From assembly GCA_949292215.1 (NCBI GenBank), contig CASEYW010000034.1, positions 62,001 through 126,000 of the forward strand: 64,000 nucleotides of DNA, given 5' to 3'. The notes under the pieces are model-generated. The model searched no databases. It worked only from the letters and a program-made list of their open reading frames with translations, and was not told the origin of the DNA. This stretch comes from an uncultured bacterium (lineage in GTDB: Bacteria; Verrucomicrobiota; Lentisphaeria; Victivallales; UBA1829). The translations under genes were made by a program, and so were the position numbers. Of the stretch, positions 27,365-37,046 are shown one piece after another (position 1 is the first letter of the stretch; each line of letters starts with the position of its first letter).

Positions 27365-28405
27365 ATGAAAGCGGAATTTATCGCAGACCATTGGATTGAG
27401 ACGGAAAAACCGGCGACTTATCATGGCTGGCCGACCTTGATCAACGCGGGAAATGATCATCTCATGATCGTCTGTTCCGCGAACCGGGAGGGACATATCT
27501 GCCCGTTCGGACGAGTAACTCTTTACACCTCCGACGACGGAGGCAAAACCTGGAGCGCCCCGGTCCGGCTCTCCAAGGGACCACTCGATGACCGGGATGC
27601 CGGAATCATCAAGACGCAGGCTGGAACCCTTCTGGTCAATTATTTCACAAGCATCCGTTTTCTGGAAACACCCGACCAGCCCACCTCCTGGGAAAAAACG
27701 GAAGAAAACATTTCCCTGGCAGAATTGAAAAAGGAACATGGGTTCTTCATGCTCCGATCCACAGACGGCGGCAGGACATGGTCGGAAAAATATGCGGTTC
27801 CCGTCAACAACGTCCACGGACCGGCACTTCTGAACGACGGTTCGCTCCTCTGGGTCGGCAGAGAAATCGGGAATGCGATCATCCAGGCCAAAAAGGGAAA
27901 ACGGAATCTTGCGGTCCGATCCACGGATGACGGGTTGACATGGCAATTTGTTTCCGAAATACCGGTCGTCCCCGGACAACTTGCAACGGACTGGCATGAA
28001 TTCCACGCGGTTCAGGCAAAAGACGGAACCATCATCGCACAATTCCGCAACCATACGGAACAGGAAATCGCCACCTGGCAGACGGAATCCGAAGACGGCG
28101 GACTCTCCTGGACCATTCCCCGCTACGTCTGCTACGGTTTCCCGACTCACCTTCTGAACCTTCCCGACGGCAGAATCCTGATGGTCTACGGCTATCGCAA
28201 AAAACCGTACGGCAACCGTTTCCGCATCAGCGCCGACAACGGGAAGAGCTGGTCCGGCGAGGCAATCCTCTCCGACGACGGCGAAGACTGGGATCTCGGC
28301 TACCCCTCCTCCGCCATCCTGAGCGACGGCTCCATTGTCACCGCCTGGTACCAGAATCGGGGCGGAACCGCGTCTCTGCGCATCAAGCAATGGAGACTCG
28401 CATGA
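27365..28405 (+). CDS. Sialidase-like BNR/Asp-box beta-propeller protein
   Basis: A 346-residue protein with five Asp-box repeats: SDDGGKTWS, STDGGRTWS, STDDGLTWQ, SEDGGLSWT and SADNGKSWS. This defines a six-bladed sialidase-type propeller. No signal peptide is visible, so the protein is predicted cytoplasmic, unlike classical exo-sialidases. AAGGAG lies 4 nt before the ATG. It is first in an operon with a FadR-type regulator (ATGA overlap) and an HpcH/HpaI aldolase, a context suggesting processing of a sugar acid or its oligosaccharide inside the cell. Sialidase activity itself is uncertain; related propellers act on other glycans or as lyases. Confidence 0.75.
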   Translation: MKAEFIADHWIETEKPATYHGWPTLINAGNDHLMIVCSANREGHICPFGRVTLYTSDDGGKTWSAPVRLSKGPLDDRDAGIIKTQAGTLLVNYFTSIRFLETPDQPTSWEKTEENISLAELKKEHGFFMLRSTDGGRTWSEKYAVPVNNVHGPALLNDGSLLWVGREIGNAIIQAKKGKRNLAVRSTDDGLTWQFVSEIPVVPGQLATDWHEFHAVQAKDGTIIAQFRNHTEQEIATWQTESEDGGLSWTIPRYVCYGFPTHLLNLPDGRILMVYGYRKKPYGNRFRISADNGKSWSGEAILSDDGEDWDLGYPSSAILSDGSIVTAWYQNRGGTASLRIKQWRLA

Positions 28406-29064
28406 CCCGTTCAGAAGAAGACTCCATTGCAGAGCGCATTTTCCATTTCATCCGGGAAAATCATCTCTCCGCCGGAGACAAACTGCCGACGGAAAAAGAA
28501 CTGGCCGCCATGTTCAATACGAGTCGCGTTGTCATCCGGGAAGGATTGCAGGGATTGAAATTCCTCGGCATACTCGAATCCTCCACCCGCGGAGGAACCG
28601 TTATCCGGGAAGTGAACTTTCCCCTGCTGAGCAGAAGCATCCAGTTCCAGATTGCCATCAACCGCGTAGACTGGAATCAGTTGACGGATGCTCGTCTGGC
28701 AATCGAACTGGGTGTGCTGGACTCCATCTGCGGTAAACTCTCGGAAGAACAGCTCAATGCTCTGCGGAAAACGGCAGACTGTACCCGGACCGGCAATACA
28801 CCGGAAGAACTCCAGCACGCCATTCAGCAAGATAAGCACTTTCACCATCTTCTCTTTGAATACAGCGGCAATCCAATCCTGCTGGCGTATTCGCAACTTC
28901 TGGAGTGCTTCTTCGACGGGAAGCGTCTTCCGGGAAAAGTCGACGAATCCGCCGCAGTCACCGGAGATCATCTGCAAATTCTATCCGCGCTTGAAACGGG
29001 GAATCTCGAACTCGCCCGCGGAACAATGCGCAGACATCTGAACAAATACAAACTCAATTCTTAA
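28402..29064 (+). CDS. FadR-type GntR regulator with FCD domain
   Basis: About 220 residues: winged helix (about 1-75; LPTEKELAAMFNTSRVVIRE is the recognition region), then an all-helical FCD domain with the metal-ligand spacing seen in this family (DKHFHHLLFEY, GDHLQILSAL, RRHLNKY). Family members sense carboxylates such as hexuronates or lactate. The frame also has an ATG at 28390, but 28402 gives the ATGA overlap with the preceding gene and GGAG 7 nt upstream. It lies between a BNR-repeat protein and an aldolase, and probably regulates that operon through repeats at 27275-27350. Confidence 0.85.
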   Translation: MTRSEEDSIAERIFHFIRENHLSAGDKLPTEKELAAMFNTSRVVIREGLQGLKFLGILESSTRGGTVIREVNFPLLSRSIQFQIAINRVDWNQLTDARLAIELGVLDSICGKLSEEQLNALRKTADCTRTGNTPEELQHAIQQDKHFHHLLFEYSGNPILLAYSQLLECFFDGKRLPGKVDESAAVTGDHLQILSALETGNLELARGTMRRHLNKYKLNS

Positions 29065-29080
29065 CACAGAGGACTTCAAT

Positions 29081-29857
29081 ATGTGCAATTGTTCTCCCCG
29101 GAGAAGTGTCGTCCTGGACAAACTGCGTTCTGGAAAAAAAGCACTCTCGTTCAAAAACAACTTCGCCTGTGCCCGCGCAACCGAACAGGCAGCCCTCGCC
29201 GGATTCGACTGCATCTGGATCTGCAGCGAACATGTCCCGACCGATTTCGATACCATGGAAAAGCAGATTCTTGCGGCAAAAGCTCACAATACAGATATCA
29301 TCGTCCGGGTGCCGAAGGGCTCCTACAGCGATTACATCCGCCCTCTGGAAGCCGACGCCACAGGAATTATGATTCCCCATCTCATGAGCGCGGACGAGGC
29401 AAGGGAAATCGTCTGGAAAACCCGTTTTCATCCGCTCGGGCGGCGTCCCGTCGACGGGGGCAATGCCGATGGACAGTACTGCCGTCTTCCTTGCCGGGAC
29501 TACATTCAATTCATGAACGAAAACCGCATGATCATCGTACAGATCGAAGACCCCGAACCGCTTGCGGAACTCGACGAAATCTGCAAAGTCCCCGGCATCG
29601 ACATGATCTTTTTCGGTCCCGGCGATTTCAGCCACGCACTCGGGGTCCCGGGAGAACTCAATCACCCGGACGTAAACCATGCCCGCAAGCTGATCGCGGA
29701 AACAGCCCATAAGTACGGAAAATTCGCAGGCACCACCTGCGGAATCGAAAATATGAAGGCCTGGTTCGAACTCGGCTACGATTTCCTCAACTGCGGGTCC
29801 GACGTCGGCGCAATGAATGCCTTCTGCAACAGAATCATGGATGTGTTCCGGGGATGA
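29081..29857 (+). CDS. HpcH/HpaI-family aldolase (2-keto-3-deoxy sugar-acid type)
   Basis: A class II, metal-dependent pyruvate aldolase family member of 258 residues. Visible are the barrel strands FDCIWICSEH and DIIVRVP, GIMIPHLMSADEAR, the Glu-containing VQIEDPEPL that supplies a metal ligand, and FFGPGDFSHALG, with the Asp that completes the metal site. GAGG precedes the ATG by 8 nt. Family enzymes cleave 2-keto-3-deoxy acids to pyruvate and an aldehyde. Together with the FadR-type regulator this suggests catabolism of a sugar acid released from glycans. The exact substrate is not assignable. Confidence 0.85.
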   Translation: MCNCSPRRSVVLDKLRSGKKALSFKNNFACARATEQAALAGFDCIWICSEHVPTDFDTMEKQILAAKAHNTDIIVRVPKGSYSDYIRPLEADATGIMIPHLMSADEAREIVWKTRFHPLGRRPVDGGNADGQYCRLPCRDYIQFMNENRMIIVQIEDPEPLAELDEICKVPGIDMIFFGPGDFSHALGVPGELNHPDVNHARKLIAETAHKYGKFAGTTCGIENMKAWFELGYDFLNCGSDVGAMNAFCNRIMDVFRG

Positions 29858-30027: not shown

Positions 30028-32541
30028 TCAGGACTCCCTGTCCCATCCTTCCGGGAGAGCCATCAGTTCCGGAAAGTGAAGGACAAAACGGCGCACCGCC
30101 TGAAGATAACTCCGAATCTGACGGCGATGCCCGCAGATGCAGAGAGAACCGGCATACAGCCCGTTCTCCGTCCGCATCCTCACGGAACCGAGAGACAAAA
30201 AACCATTGGACTGAAAATCCGTCAGAGGACTGATGAACATCTCCGCATCCCGGATAATCGAAAGTCCCATCGAACCGACGATCTCATTCAGATCACGCGG
30301 AGCAAGAACACGCGCCAGATGATAGAAAAACGGATGCAGCATTGTGCAGAGAGAAAGAAACTCATGGCTCTCGCCGCGCCCCAGCCGAATATCGTTCATG
30401 CGGAGATTCATCTCTTTCTGAAAGTTCAGGAACTCCTCCAAAGGCGATATCTCTGACGAATAAAAGCCCGGACGGATGAAAAGCAATCCAAGTTCCCGTT
30501 CCCCCTGAGCACTCATTCCAGCATCTACGGGCAGAAGCATTTTCTTGTTGCGAAACGCTTCATGACGCGAAAGCCCCCACAGCATCAGCCCGGCAAGTGA
30601 CGCGGCACCGTTCATCCGGGTCAGGTAATGCACGTTCAGCCACTTCCGCAAACGCAGAAGCCGGGAAAAATCAATATACAGACGAGTCCGGAAAATCTGA
30701 TCGCCGCAATCCATTGTTTCCGCCAGCGTAACGGGGTACCGCAATGCCGGATAAAGCACCTCCCCCGCACTCCCCCAGGAACGCTTGAGTTCCGTCAGCA
30801 TCTCCTGCATCGGAGCGCCGTCCGCAGTAATGTGATGGAACTGGAACCAGAGATCAACTTCCCGGAAATCCGCGGTAAAACGCGCGCTGATACAGCTCAT
30901 TCCCCAGCCGGGATGACGGCGGATGCGAAGATCTGGCGTCGCCATCCGCGCTCCAACGCGGGAAACGGGATCTTCCGGAAGAACTGAAACATAAAGAAAA
31001 GTCGCGCTCATCACCCGCTCCACCAGCCGATGGAGATTCCGACGGGAAAGAAACGAGAACCCCTTCGCACGCTTCGACCAGCTGGCCAATGCCTGACGAA
31101 TCAGCTGCGGCCGCTTCTTATCCGGAGCATCTTTGTACTGATTGCAGATTTGAATGATCTGTTTCAGCGCAGAATCAAGCTGCGCCTCCGTCAACTGGAG
31201 GCGCCGGGAATGGCGTTCATCAAAGACCGGATACAAATGCTCCAGACGGCCCTCCGAGTCGACCTCCGCCTCCACGATATTGCAGAGAGTTGTCTTGCGG
31301 CGGCGGAACGAAAGGACCCCGGGCTCAACAGACCAATGAAGCTCCTTTCTTGTCAGCAGAAAGGCATACAGGCGTTCCAGCAGAATCGCCTTCGCCGCCG
31401 GAAGCGAAGACGGAATACGTCCCCCCGCATAATCCAGCCGGAAACTCGCAAGCATGAATTTCGAGTACTCCCCGCGCAGGAAAACCGATGTCACCTTCCG
31501 CCAGCCGTGCGCTTCTGCCCGGACTCCAAGCAGACGGAAAAACTGCAGGATTTTCAGGATTGAAATCAGAATCACGGCACCGATGCTCCAGGTTTCGAAC
31601 AGAGAGCTCAGGCGCATTCTGCGTCCGGGAGTCTCCGGCAGGCGGACAATCTCTTCGGCAGCTCTTCGATCGGGAAGAGACGGACGCTTCCGATGAATGA
31701 AATCCGTCATCAGTCCGGCTGTCAGTTCCGGAAACTCCTCCTGCGGAAGATGTCCGCAGTCCGGAATCAGAATCTCCGTAGAATTGCGGAGGATGCTGGA
31801 AAAGATACGCATATCCTCCTGCGGCACAATGGCATCCTCCTCTCCCCAGATGAGCAGGACGGGCAGTTCGAAACGGCTCAGCCCCGCTGTAACGCTTTCG
31901 CGGTCCGGTGCCTTGTAATTCTTTGCCGCCCGGATAATGGAATCCAGGCGTCCCGGATGCGCAAGCATTCCGGAATAAGCTTCCAGTGTCCGCGGAGAAA
32001 TCCGATCCGGCTTGTGATAGACATAATCCAGCACAAGTTTCGCCAGAAAACGGGAGCGGGCAAAGCGAAGGACCCGTCCCGTGGCAAGGGAAGCAATCTT
32101 TCCGATGTATTCCGGCACCTCCTTCAGCAGACTGCTGCAGGAAAGCAGAATCATGCGGTCCATACGCGCCAGAATCTCGGGAGAGAGTGCCAGGAGAAGA
32201 GCAATTTCTCCGCCGAGTCCCTGTCCGATCAGCGTCAGCCGCCGCAAATCCAGCGACAGAATGAATTTCCGCAGAAGCTCCGCCTGATCCGAATTGGAAA
32301 CAATATCCTGCGAGGTCTGAAGCGAAAAACCGAATCCGTTCAAATCCACCCGGATCGAGCGGACCCCATCCGGCATGAAACGGAGCAGTTCATTCCAGGT
32401 TCCTGAAAACGAGGCGAAATCATGCAGAAAGAGGAGAACGGGTCCGTCTCCTCCGGAATCACGATAGGCAAGGATGTTGTTTGCATCAAGACGGATGTGC
32501 CGATATTCGGTATTGAGTTCACTTGCGGCTGCCGTCGTCAT
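30028..32541 (-). CDS. Fusion of alpha/beta-hydrolase fold (nucleophile Ser lost) and CoA-type acyltransferase/condensation-like domain
   Basis: 837 residues from the ATG at 32541 (AGGA 9 nt upstream; 23-nt overlap with the preceding gene). The frame is open to 32643, which would give a 125-nt overlap. Residues about 20-285 are an alpha/beta hydrolase (VLLFLHDFASFSGTW oxyanion loop, WGEEDAIVP acid, CGHLPQEEFPE His). The nucleophile elbow reads GQGLGG, so Gly108 replaces the Ser. After a hydrophobic linker (about 325-350), residues 400-837 carry HHITADG (His569, His570, Asp574), the HxxxD active site of chloramphenicol-acetyltransferase, condensation and wax-ester-synthase folds. It is last in a minus-strand cluster with an LCAT-like lipoprotein. 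An envelope or lipid acyl transfer role is inferred. Confidence 0.7.
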   Translation of the reverse strand: MTTAAASELNTEYRHIRLDANNILAYRDSGGDGPVLLFLHDFASFSGTWNELLRFMPDGVRSIRVDLNGFGFSLQTSQDIVSNSDQAELLRKFILSLDLRRLTLIGQGLGGEIALLLALSPEILARMDRMILLSCSSLLKEVPEYIGKIASLATGRVLRFARSRFLAKLVLDYVYHKPDRISPRTLEAYSGMLAHPGRLDSIIRAAKNYKAPDRESVTAGLSRFELPVLLIWGEEDAIVPQEDMRIFSSILRNSTEILIPDCGHLPQEEFPELTAGLMTDFIHRKRPSLPDRRAAEEIVRLPETPGRRMRLSSLFETWSIGAVILISILKILQFFRLLGVRAEAHGWRKVTSVFLRGEYSKFMLASFRLDYAGGRIPSSLPAAKAILLERLYAFLLTRKELHWSVEPGVLSFRRRKTTLCNIVEAEVDSEGRLEHLYPVFDERHSRRLQLTEAQLDSALKQIIQICNQYKDAPDKKRPQLIRQALASWSKRAKGFSFLSRRNLHRLVERVMSATFLYVSVLPEDPVSRVGARMATPDLRIRRHPGWGMSCISARFTADFREVDLWFQFHHITADGAPMQEMLTELKRSWGSAGEVLYPALRYPVTLAETMDCGDQIFRTRLYIDFSRLLRLRKWLNVHYLTRMNGAASLAGLMLWGLSRHEAFRNKKMLLPVDAGMSAQGERELGLLFIRPGFYSSEISPLEEFLNFQKEMNLRMNDIRLGRGESHEFLSLCTMLHPFFYHLARVLAPRDLNEIVGSMGLSIIRDAEMFISPLTDFQSNGFLSLGSVRMRTENGLYAGSLCICGHRRQIRSYLQAVRRFVLHFPELMALPEGWDRES

Positions 32542-34033
32542 CCGGAGCGGTCCTGTGTTTGATAATGTCGGAATACTCCGCCATATGCTTTCTCTGATAA
32601 GGAGTCGGCGAAGCAAGAAGAAGAAAACGGAGGTTGGTTTCAAAGGTATCGCTGTTCATGATGCCCATGTGCCCGCCATGAAAATAATAGACGGATGACC
32701 AGTTGATCGGCGAAACGAGAAACGGAAGCCAGTTGTCTTTTGTACGAAGATCGTGACGGGCGCTCATGGCGGTGATCTTTCCGTCGCCCGCATCACGTTT
32801 CGTCACGACGACACGTCCGTCCGGCTGCACAGCGACCTTGTCGTTGGTCAGCAGCGCATCTCCTGCGATCAGATACAGAGCCACATTCTCCGGTGCAGCC
32901 GCCGGAGTCCGAAGCGAGCGTTTGAACTGGCGCGCCCGCTTGAGACATTTGTCCAGATGATCCAGCGCCACACGATAGCGTTCCTCGGGGGTTTCGACAT
33001 CGGGCAGGATGATTTTAAGCCACTTGTCCTGATCCGGATCGGCAAGTCCCCAGCCGTAGTGAATCCAGGTGTCAATGGAGAAGCAGTCGACCGGCTTCGC
33101 CTCATTGCCGGAAAGAAGCACGGAATCGGTTTCCGGATCGGGAAGCATCTGATAGTACGAGGGAAACGTGCCGATGACGGTTTTCGGATAAAGCGGTGCA
33201 GCTGGCGCCAGACGCAGTCCTTCTGTCAGCTCAACCAGCGTATCGACATATCCGGCGTTCGGCGTAGCGATGATCACGACCTTATCAATGAATCCGGCTC
33301 CTTCCCATGTCACTTTCGGAATCTGCTCCGGATCGTCGGGCAGCGGAGTTCCGCCGTAACGCATGAAGTAGCGGGCGACAAGACCACCCATGCTGTGCGC
33401 GACAAGATCGAATTTCACATTGTAATCATGGAGTCCGTAGAGCTCCCGGTATTTCTCCCGCAGTTCGTTTCTGCGCTCGAGAATGAACTCGCGGAGACGC
33501 GCAGCGTTTTCCGAAATATCGCGTCTCCAGTCATAATAAAAAAGAAATTGAGAATGGAAATGACGGTCCGGAGGCAGCGGTTCGGAATCGGGCATATAGC
33601 CGGAATTCTTCAGACTCCTGACGAGAATATCGTACCCTTCATAATCAAAGGAAAAGCCCAGAATCCGGATCTGAGAACGGTCGAGAAGACCCGAGGGTTT
33701 GACTGGCGAAGAAAGATCCCTCAGCGGAATTCCCGCTTTCATGGGATGCGCCAGCCGTGCGAATTTATTGCCTGTCAGCATCTCCCCGAGCGAAAAATTG
33801 CCCCAGATGTTTTCCGCATTCGACTCATCCTCCAGTTTGGAACCGAGAAGTCCATGAATCACAATCACCGGATTCCGTCCGGGGCCCTCGTACTCAAATG
33901 ATTTCCGGATCACGTCGCAATAGACCGATTTTCCGTGGACCTTCGCATCCTGATACGACCCGGAATCCGTGGAACAGGCGCTGAGAAGCAGAAGCGGCAG
34001 GAGCGAAAGGGAAAAGGCATGGCCTTTGTTCAT
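32519..34033 (-). CDS. LCAT-like alpha/beta-hydrolase lipoprotein
   Basis: About 504 residues beginning with a lipoprotein signal (SLSLLPLLLLSAC, lipobox LSAC). VIVIHGLLGSKL is the oxyanion region of lecithin:cholesterol acyltransferase-like and PGAP1-like lipases. The catalytic Ser, near residue 214, lies in AHSMGG, and the C-terminal FHGGHMG supplies the His. The start is ambiguous: the frame opens at 34054, but AGGA lies 7 nt before the ATG at 34033 (4 nt before one at 34036), giving a standard signal peptide. The enzyme would be anchored in the outer or inner membrane and act on lipids or esters. It overlaps the acyltransferase fusion gene, implying a shared pathway. Confidence 0.75.
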   Translation of the reverse strand: MNKGHAFSLSLLPLLLLSACSTDSGSYQDAKVHGKSVYCDVIRKSFEYEGPGRNPVIVIHGLLGSKLEDESNAENIWGNFSLGEMLTGNKFARLAHPMKAGIPLRDLSSPVKPSGLLDRSQIRILGFSFDYEGYDILVRSLKNSGYMPDSEPLPPDRHFHSQFLFYYDWRRDISENAARLREFILERRNELREKYRELYGLHDYNVKFDLVAHSMGGLVARYFMRYGGTPLPDDPEQIPKVTWEGAGFIDKVVIIATPNAGYVDTLVELTEGLRLAPAAPLYPKTVIGTFPSYYQMLPDPETDSVLLSGNEAKPVDCFSIDTWIHYGWGLADPDQDKWLKIILPDVETPEERYRVALDHLDKCLKRARQFKRSLRTPAAAPENVALYLIAGDALLTNDKVAVQPDGRVVVTKRDAGDGKITAMSARHDLRTKDNWLPFLVSPINWSSVYYFHGGHMGIMNSDTFETNLRFLLLASPTPYQRKHMAEYSDIIKHRTAPDDDGSRK

Positions 34034-34113
34034 CATGGAGTCCTGTGTATTCATCTGGCAAGGCTTTCGTAAGGGGTTGATGCTGTTCGGCAGGAATATA
34101 TCATGATGAACTT

Positions 34114-34162: not shown

Positions 34163-36073
34163 TCAGAATTCGAGCGAAAGTTCATCCATCCGCGGCTTCA
34201 CGTCAAAGAGAATTTTGCCGTGCTTCACAACAAAGAGCCCCCAGTGATCTTCCGGAAGTGCCGGATTGCCCGCAAGAGACCGGAGGTAGCGGTTCATCTT
34301 TCCAAAAATAAGATAATATTCGAGTCCTTTGGCTGCTTTGTCGACCGGCATGCGGACCATCCGCATCCGCCGCGGCTGTTTGTTGATGCCAAGGGGAACC
34401 AGCAGATAGATATCGCCATCCGGCAGATCCTGAATTCCGAAACGGTTCAGGTAAAACGGATAAAGGCTCTCACCGAACTGAAGAGCCGGATAAGGTTTCT
34501 CCGTCACCCGGACCCGGGAGGGTAGAATTGTATACCGGCTGTGACTGAGGGTATAGGAGGCCAGCAGTCGTTCCTGCCGGGCAGTCGGGAAGAGCCGTTC
34601 TTCCGAAAGCGGTCCCAGCAGACTCTCGCCCAGAGGAAACACATAGTTGTGACGAACCCCGAGAAGATCCAGCACGGTCGGAGCAATATCAAAAGTCATC
34701 CCGGCGACATCCCGGTGTCCGCGCGTTCCAGTGTTCAGAGCCATTACAACAAGACGGCGGCGGGAATTCCGGGACAAGACCTCCGACAGAATCCCGCCGG
34801 GCATGAGATGATCACTCACCAGAATCACGCAGGTGTCTTTCCAAGCGGGAGTCTTTTTCAAACGGTCGATGAAAGCCCCGATTCGTTCGTCCATCGTATG
34901 AACCGCATCCAGCATCACATTGCCGGTCCGGTTCTCCGGATAGCGGATGGAATCGGAATAAAAAAATCCATGCGGCGCGTGGGTATCCAGAGTCAGAAGG
35001 GTAAGATTGAACGGTTTTCCGCCGGAAGCAAGCTGCTGAAACGTCTCAAATGCCCAGTCAAAAAGAACGGCATCCTTGCAACCCCAGGTTCGGGAACGTC
35101 CGGGGAATTCGGTTTCGTAAGCGAACATCCGGTTGAAACGTTCCCGTCCGAGAAACACGTTCATCCCGGCAAAAGAGAGATTAACCCCCCGCAGAAAAAC
35201 CTGCTCGTATCCCGCCGACGCCAGGATGGACGGCAGAGACGGCAGCTTCTCCCCCACAGCCACCCGGATTCCGGAATTCACGAATCCGCCGCGAAGCACC
35301 TGTTTCACGAGAGGCAGTCCCATCATGGATGCGTAAATGCCTCCGAATGTGTAATCCGCATTCAGCGCCGGAGAAATATTGTCAAAAGACAAAGCCTCCT
35401 CAGCCAGCGCATTCAGCCGGGGAGTCAGACCGGGAAACATCCGTTCGTCCAGAAATGTGTTTTCCAGCGATTCCATGTAAATCAGAACAAGATTTTTCCC
35501 GGGAGAAGCAACCACATCATCTTTGCTTATGGACGACACCTTCACTCCAGCTTTCCGGTAATCCTCATCGGAAAAACGCCCGCTCCAAAGTTCAAAATCC
35601 AGAAAAGCCTCCCGCGCCGGAGAAAACAGCAGAAGAGGAAGCGACAGCAGAAGACCGGTCACACACCAGCGTCTCCTGATTTTTTTCCCGGGAAATTTCA
35701 GATACAGAAACACGAGTCCGCTCAGGAGCAGCACGTAGTAAAGAATACTGACCAGAATCTCCTCCAGAAAGAGAGAAAAGATTATCGGAACATTTTCCAG
35801 CCGCACATGATAGAGCAATTCAAAATTCAGAGTCTTTCCCGAACAGAAAAAAACCAGATCGAAAAACAACTGGAAAAACAGCAGAAGGCCGCTCGTTACA
35901 GCCACAACGCATATCCGCCGGCCAGATCCGAGCAGCAAGCTCGAAACAAAAAAAACGCACAACGCAATTCCAGCCGTCCCCAGGAATACCCGATAATCAA
36001 ACTGATGCGCAACAATCGAATTCACAATCGGCGCAAGCGAGATCAGAAGATAAGAGATCAGAAGAGAATACAC
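34163..36073 (-). CDS. OpgB/LtaS-like membrane phosphoglycerol or phosphoethanolamine transferase (sulfatase superfamily)
   Basis: A 636-residue protein with about five N-terminal membrane helices (to residue 155) and a periplasmic alkaline-phosphatase-superfamily domain. LVLIYMESLENTF and LNADYTFGG resemble E. coli OpgB; Thr242 in DYT is at the nucleophile position. LVSDHLMPGG supplies late metal ligands. The start is GTG, with AAGGAAA 9 nt upstream; no better ATG exists. Family enzymes transfer phosphoglycerol or similar head groups from phospholipids to periplasmic glucans, teichoic acids or lipid A. The two lipase/acyltransferase genes downstream could use or recycle the lipid by-product; that link is inference. 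Confidence 0.8.
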   Translation of the reverse strand: MYSLLISYLLISLAPIVNSIVAHQFDYRVFLGTAGIALCVFFVSSLLLGSGRRICVVAVTSGLLLFFQLFFDLVFFCSGKTLNFELLYHVRLENVPIIFSLFLEEILVSILYYVLLLSGLVFLYLKFPGKKIRRRWCVTGLLLSLPLLLFSPAREAFLDFELWSGRFSDEDYRKAGVKVSSISKDDVVASPGKNLVLIYMESLENTFLDERMFPGLTPRLNALAEEALSFDNISPALNADYTFGGIYASMMGLPLVKQVLRGGFVNSGIRVAVGEKLPSLPSILASAGYEQVFLRGVNLSFAGMNVFLGRERFNRMFAYETEFPGRSRTWGCKDAVLFDWAFETFQQLASGGKPFNLTLLTLDTHAPHGFFYSDSIRYPENRTGNVMLDAVHTMDERIGAFIDRLKKTPAWKDTCVILVSDHLMPGGILSEVLSRNSRRRLVVMALNTGTRGHRDVAGMTFDIAPTVLDLLGVRHNYVFPLGESLLGPLSEERLFPTARQERLLASYTLSHSRYTILPSRVRVTEKPYPALQFGESLYPFYLNRFGIQDLPDGDIYLLVPLGINKQPRRMRMVRMPVDKAAKGLEYYLIFGKMNRYLRSLAGNPALPEDHWGLFVVKHGKILFDVKPRMDELSLEF

Positions 36074-36329: not shown

Positions 36330-37046
36330 ATGAGCACCGAGAAAAATTCGGAAAAAGTTGCCTTGTATGTTGCGCTGGTTGCATCCATTTTAGCCTTGGT
36401 TCTGACAATTTTTACATATCTGGTTCCTCCATCCGGCAATCTGCTTTCCGGATTTGCACCCAAAGCGCCCTCGGTGCCATCACGCGGTCCGGGAGGTCCG
36501 GGCGGTCCCGGCGGAGGACGCGGGTCCGGTGGTCCCGGCGGAGGACCCGGTGGCAGAATGATGCGCGGGTTCGCTCCCTCGCCCGAATATGTTCAGAAAT
36601 ATGAAGAACGCGTTGATCTGTTAAAAAAGCATTCGGATGAGATCAGGACCCGCTATCAGGCAGCCGGCGCGGATCTGGGAGAGGTTCTGGCGGCACACTC
36701 ACGCTGGATCGAAGCAAAACTGAATCTGATGCGCTTGAAAAAAGGACAGCGTATCCAGGCAAATTCCTTTGCCAATACCTGTATTGCCCTGCGGAATGCC
36801 GAAGAACAGCTGAAACTGGCCCAGGAAAAGTTCAAGGCTGGCGGAATCCCGCATGAGAAAGTAGCTGAATTGCGCCTTGAAGTCAATGATGCGGAACTGC
36901 GCCTTCTGGAAACGGGACGCCGTCTGAATCCGGAAAAAGTGGCAGAGGCAAAAGCTGTTCTTCAGAAAACTTCTCTGGAAAAGCTGACGGATCAGGATCT
37001 GGAAAAACTCCTTGCGGCGGAACAGCGTTCCCGCGGTCCGCGCTGA
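36330..37046 (+). CDS. Hypothetical membrane-anchored protein with Gly/Pro-rich linker and coiled coil
   Basis: I recognise no family. The 238-residue protein has one transmembrane helix (about residues 10-32, VALYVALVASILALVLTIFT). A low-complexity linker rich in Gly, Pro, Arg and Ser follows (about residues 48-75, runs of PGG and GGPGGG). The remaining 160 residues are highly charged and helical, probably coiled coil (KFKAGGIPHEKVAELRLEVN and DAELRLLETGRR resemble TolC-type or periplasmic adaptor helices). No signal cleavage site is seen, so it is probably a bitopic protein with the coil in the periplasm. It is monocistronic: a promoter precedes it and a strong terminator follows. A structural envelope role is a guess. 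Confidence 0.6.
   Translation: MSTEKNSEKVALYVALVASILALVLTIFTYLVPPSGNLLSGFAPKAPSVPSRGPGGPGGPGGGRGSGGPGGGPGGRMMRGFAPSPEYVQKYEERVDLLKKHSDEIRTRYQAAGADLGEVLAAHSRWIEAKLNLMRLKKGQRIQANSFANTCIALRNAEEQLKLAQEKFKAGGIPHEKVAELRLEVNDAELRLLETGRRLNPEKVAEAKAVLQKTSLEKLTDQDLEKLLAAEQRSRGPR

Follow-up and report, generated by a model that had tools for sequence, protein, structure and literature searches.

A nucleophile-less alpha/beta-hydrolase domain fused to an uncatalogued CAT-like acyltransferase fold and co-inherited with an LCAT-type lipase in Victivallales

Gene content of the locus

The window analysed here (64,000 nucleotides of contig CASEYW010000034.1, from an uncultured bacterium of the order Victivallales) encodes an 837-residue protein in which an alpha/beta-hydrolase-like domain precedes a domain of the CAT superfamily of acyltransferases (HxxxDG). 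The open reading frame of this fusion starts at an ATG at position 32541. The gene directly upstream, on the same strand, encodes a lipase; the two reading frames share 23 bp, the fusion ATG being located within the 3' end of the lipase gene, so that co-transcription and translational coupling are probable. The nearest named relatives of the fusion protein are from Victivallales genomes. The features discussed below are as follows.

30028..32541, minus strand: fusion gene, alpha/beta-hydrolase-like domain plus CAT-superfamily (HxxxDG) acyltransferase domain (837 aa)
31684..32502, minus strand: N-terminal pseudo-hydrolase domain, residues 14-286 (PF00561/PF12697, AF2 model, Foldseek)
32209..32226, minus strand: nucleophile elbow GQGLGG, residues 106-111, with Gly108 for Ser (sequence and alignment column)
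31834..31836, minus strand: D236, triad acid position, present in all full-length members of the alignment
31750..31752, minus strand: H264, triad His position, present in all full-length members of the alignment
30031..31626, minus strand: C-terminal acyltransferase-fold domain, residues 306-837 (AF2 and Foldseek; without a Pfam or NCBIfam model)
30817..30837, minus strand: HHITADG motif, residues 569-575; no aligned homologue differs at H570, D574, or G575
32519..34054, minus strand: LCAT-family lipase, probably a lipoprotein by its signal (lipobox Cys27), with AHSMGG, Asp, and His intact (PF02450, alignment)

Several other genes are encoded nearby. A sulfatase/phosphoglycerol-transferase-like membrane protein (34163-36073, minus strand) lies directly upstream of the LCAT-type gene, and a second copy, 38% identical, is present in the same genome (G000:C8). 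This gene was rejected as a member of the system because it occupies this place only in genus g1 (three of four genomes, by coordinates) and because its phyletic profile differs from that of the acyltransferase. On the plus strand at 27365-29857, a BNR-repeat (sialidase-like) gene, a GntR/FCD regulator, and an HpcH/HpaI aldolase stand in a row and likely form a sugar-acid catabolic cluster, and at 36330-37046, also on the plus strand, a small protein has an N-terminal hydrophobic segment followed by a Gly/Pro-rich low-complexity stretch. A search for a defense function with PADLOC gave no match. Comparison with a viral fold library gave one weak and uninformative match, and generic alpha/beta-hydrolases aligning to the N-terminal domain were among the matches listed in a plasmid search.

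The two halves of the fusion protein

The N-terminal domain has an alpha/beta-hydrolase fold, with Pfam matches to PF00561 (residues 34-270, E 2.2e-15) and PF12697 (residues 36-275, E 6e-15) and Foldseek matches to ABHD6, PlaF, and haloalkane dehalogenase. The match to ABHD6, a monoacylglycerol lipase, has an E-value of 6e-17 and a TMt of 0.76, and another of the best structural matches is to 6i8w, a membrane phospholipase A from a bacterium. An earlier note on this DNA had read the elbow as GQGLGG, with Gly108 in the place of Ser and the acid and His positions kept. The reading frame and an alignment of 43 full-length fusions from Victivallales bear this out: the window protein has no Ser, Cys, or Asp at the elbow, the column of residue 108 holds Ser in 35 sequences, Gly in seven, and Phe in one, and the columns of D236 and H264 are conserved in 43/43. 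The oxyanion hole is also altered, as the window protein has H40-D41 (G41D) and not the HG of the comparison set, which consists of members selected as canonical, namely the 28 of the 35 Ser-keeping fusions with a canonical hydrolase site. Residue 41 is Asp or Glu in six of the seven Ser-less members, and the changes in this clade at columns fixed in the canonical set include S108, G41, K68, G137, I181, and W232. D236, H264, G233, and E269 are retained in Ser-less members (D236 and H264 in 7/7), along with most structural residues. The domain appears to descend from a serine lipase or esterase, the triad of which is intact in most relatives and the nucleophile of which is gone in this clade.

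Since Ser is kept in most full-length homologues, the fusion usually combines an acyltransferase with a presumed-active hydrolase. The pseudo-hydrolase fusion proposed in the earlier note was found in related genomes, but the loss of the nucleophile is confined to one clade. All seven Gly108 copies belong to genera g1, g3, and g4 of a single family, and every full-length member of their clade has Gly at this position. Homologues with Ser do exist, yet Gly recurs in three genera (seven genomes), which indicates that the loss is real and lineage-specific and rules out a sequencing or strain quirk at residue 108. Elsewhere in the alignment, the sequence with Phe at this column (L080, from G070) reads GHFTGG, and its congener G071 has GHSTGG, apparently reflecting a separate loss of the nucleophile. 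In L057, L058, L050, and L100 (genera g46 and g47), Ser is present and the oxyanion HG is changed to GG, with GYSLG in one of them; these proteins are possibly impaired hydrolases.

No Pfam or NCBIfam model fits the C-terminal half of the window protein, and a PDB sequence-profile search gave no convincing match for it. The structure prediction suggested by the earlier note recovered an acyltransferase fold in this half (AF2 model, pLDDT 90.7, pTM 0.90). The model has the two-subdomain CAT fold (Foldseek probability 1.00 to 1xmc, 4eyw, 6chj, and others), and matches over most of the domain, with E-values of 1e-10 to 1e-7, include carnitine/choline acyltransferases, BAHD acyltransferases, wax ester synthase, and condensation domains, the carnitine acyltransferases being the best. 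Because the superpositions have RMSD values of 10-16 Å and TM-scores of about 0.5 at best, the domain is assigned to the CAT-like superfamily and not to one of its families. The carnitine/choline, BAHD, and NRPS condensation-domain enzymes share this fold at about 10% identity, and no NRPS modules were recognized near the fusion gene. The HHITADG motif that had been noticed in the second half is located at residues 569-575, and H570, D574, and G575 are invariant across a family about 40% identical to the window protein. Given the motif, which falls between a strand and a helix, H570 probably corresponds to the catalytic His of CAT-like structures. The HHxxxDG motif and the two-subdomain fold are shared with WS/DGAT (PF03007; 6chj), but this profile matches none of 48 family members and nothing in the 137 genomes of the order, the control genomes likewise giving no match. 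The condensation-domain profile (PF00668) matches two of the 48 members, with a best E-value of 0.002, and does not match the window protein. The acyltransferase family is an uncatalogued one inside a known superfamily, and the literature search found no description of such hydrolase-acyltransferase fusions or of Victivallales acyltransferases.

Distribution, phylogeny, and co-inheritance with the lipase

Relatives of the fusion protein are present in 67 of the 137 Victivallales genomes. Among 388 genomes sampled from the phylum, all matches to the C-terminal profile fall within Victivallales; the restriction to the order is firm within this sample, and other phyla were covered by one pattern-limited scan. 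The acyltransferase half occurs without the hydrolase domain in g8, g6, g44, G130, and G054. Split genes were ruled out as an explanation for these lineages, as no open reading frame related to the N-terminal domain lies beside the acyltransferase. In three hydrolase-less acyltransferases of genus g6 (L076, L077, and L099), the open frames run upstream past the domain, spanning 587-712 codons. In a tree of the acyltransferase half built by maximum likelihood, all Gly-bearing copies group with the hydrolase-less g8 (support 99/97), and this clade joins the hydrolase-less g44 (100/100), with Ser on most other branches. The simplest reading is that the nucleophile was lost first and the whole domain was then lost in some descendants. 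The root position and several long branches are uncertain.

The LCAT-type gene matches PF02450 with 27.7 bits (cut-off 21), 17/17 members of its family match this profile, and the candidate catalytic residues S221, D424, and H462 are invariant in the family alignment. Within the LCAT family it represents a bacterial lipoprotein subfamily, the lipoprotein signal being read by eye, that is largely restricted to Victivallales in the phylum sample. The lipase adjoins the acyltransferase, upstream or downstream, in 10 genera. Across the 137 genomes, both genes occur in 64, the acyltransferase only in three, the lipase only in two, and neither in 68, so that 64 of the 69 genomes with either gene carry both (Fisher p 1e-32, phylogeny ignored). 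Genera g3 and g4 include genomes with the pair as well as genomes lacking both genes. For the single control, the adjacent sulfatase gene, 8 of the 18 genomes encoding it have the acyltransferase, approximately the chance expectation. No other conserved neighbors of the acyltransferase or lipase were found beyond small local clusters, and a relation between the state of the hydrolase domain and lipase adjacency was suggestive by eye and not significant in an independent-pairs test. The near-constant co-inheritance with an exported LCAT-type lipase points to an uncharacterized lipid-acylation system of this order.

Selection on the hydrolase domain and potential function

The dead hydrolase domain is under purifying selection. 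Among the three closest genomes, the Ser-less domain has a dN/dS of 0.08-0.14 (dS 0.7-0.8) and the acyltransferase half one of 0.07-0.12; for comparisons with the more distant G001, in which synonymous sites are close to saturated, the values are 0.29 and 0.24. The ratio of N- to C-terminal divergence in Ser-less pairs (1.04-1.26) is inside the range of Ser-bearing pairs. Together with the retained Asp, His, and structural residues, the dN/dS values indicate that the domain is maintained, though not as a classical serine hydrolase.

The domain may instead be the remnant of a hydrolase that once served in editing or in acyl delivery, now decaying toward complete loss, in which case the acyltransferase alone would matter in this clade. 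The complete absence of the domain from g8, within the same clade, and from the neighboring clade g44 would fit such decay, as would the loss of the oxyanion Gly41 and Trp232 in most or several Ser-less members. However, the low dN/dS at substantial synonymous divergence, a divergence ratio like that of Ser-bearing pairs, and the retention of D236, H264, G233, and E269 argue against it, leaving a relic a real but minor possibility. Alternatively, the chemistry of the domain may be changed and not lost, with the Asp-His dyad activating water or an acceptor, or with a recruited D/E41. Although the full retention of Asp and His in the absence of Ser and the frequent acidic residue at position 41 are consistent with serine-independent catalysis, G001, the seventh Ser-less member, lacks an acidic residue 41 as well, and D/E41 would disrupt the oxyanion hole, making such catalysis improbable. 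As for the C-terminal half, the lack of a sequence-level match between the window protein and any curated family could indicate a CAT-like fold that is not an acyltransferase, for instance a binding or cyclizing domain as in some condensation-domain relatives; given the invariant H570, D574, and G575, we consider this very unlikely.

The reading favored here, with a probability of roughly 0.6, is an active acyltransferase with a selected pseudo-hydrolase module that, together with the exported lipase, would serve a pathway acylating or remodeling envelope lipids. The retention of the acyltransferase in lineages that lost the hydrolase counts for this reading, and the loss of the domain in related lineages, equally compatible with decay and with regulation, counts against it. 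From the fold and motif, we infer that the protein transfers acyl groups to O (or N) atoms as a member of the CAT-like (CoA-dependent acyltransferase) superfamily. H570 would act as a general base, taking a proton from the acceptor where the two subdomains meet, and the acyl donor may, as in the superfamily, be acyl-CoA or acyl-ACP. The N-terminal domain, with its nucleophile (Ser to Gly) and usually also its oxyanion Gly lost, would persist under selection without catalyzing a reaction, most likely as a lipid-binding or regulatory module for the acyltransferase or the partner lipase. The earlier note proposed that it may bind an acyl or polyol substrate for the second domain. The LCAT-type lipoprotein may belong to this pathway, acting at the envelope, and the fusion and lipase would together constitute a lipid acylation/remodeling system of Victivallales.

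In its mode of action, the closest known parallel is, by analogy, the animal protein ABHD5/CGI-58, which has another residue in place of the nucleophile Ser (Asn153 in human), retains the acid and His, and functions not as a hydrolase but as the activator of a separate lipase (PMC9694394). The N-terminal domain of the window protein resembles it as an alpha/beta-hydrolase without the nucleophile Ser that keeps the acid and His positions. The likeness is not one of membership: ABHD5 is a single domain with Asn, whereas in the window protein Gly takes that place and an acyltransferase follows in the same chain, and the partner of ABHD5 is the patatin-type ATGL, whereas the co-inherited lipase is LCAT-type. 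A more specific and rather tentative proposal is a two-gene envelope-lipid system with an order-restricted acyltransferase, in which the pseudo-enzyme might control acyl transfer or the LCAT-type lipase, a bacterial equivalent of the control that ABHD5 exerts on a lipase.

For a little-studied bacterial order, the analysis names an acyltransferase family absent from catalogues, together with a lipase that is likely its partner. Victivallales also provide a natural series on one acyltransferase backbone, comprising an intact hydrolase, a Ser-less but conserved hydrolase, and a deleted hydrolase, which makes the role of the pseudo-hydrolase directly testable.
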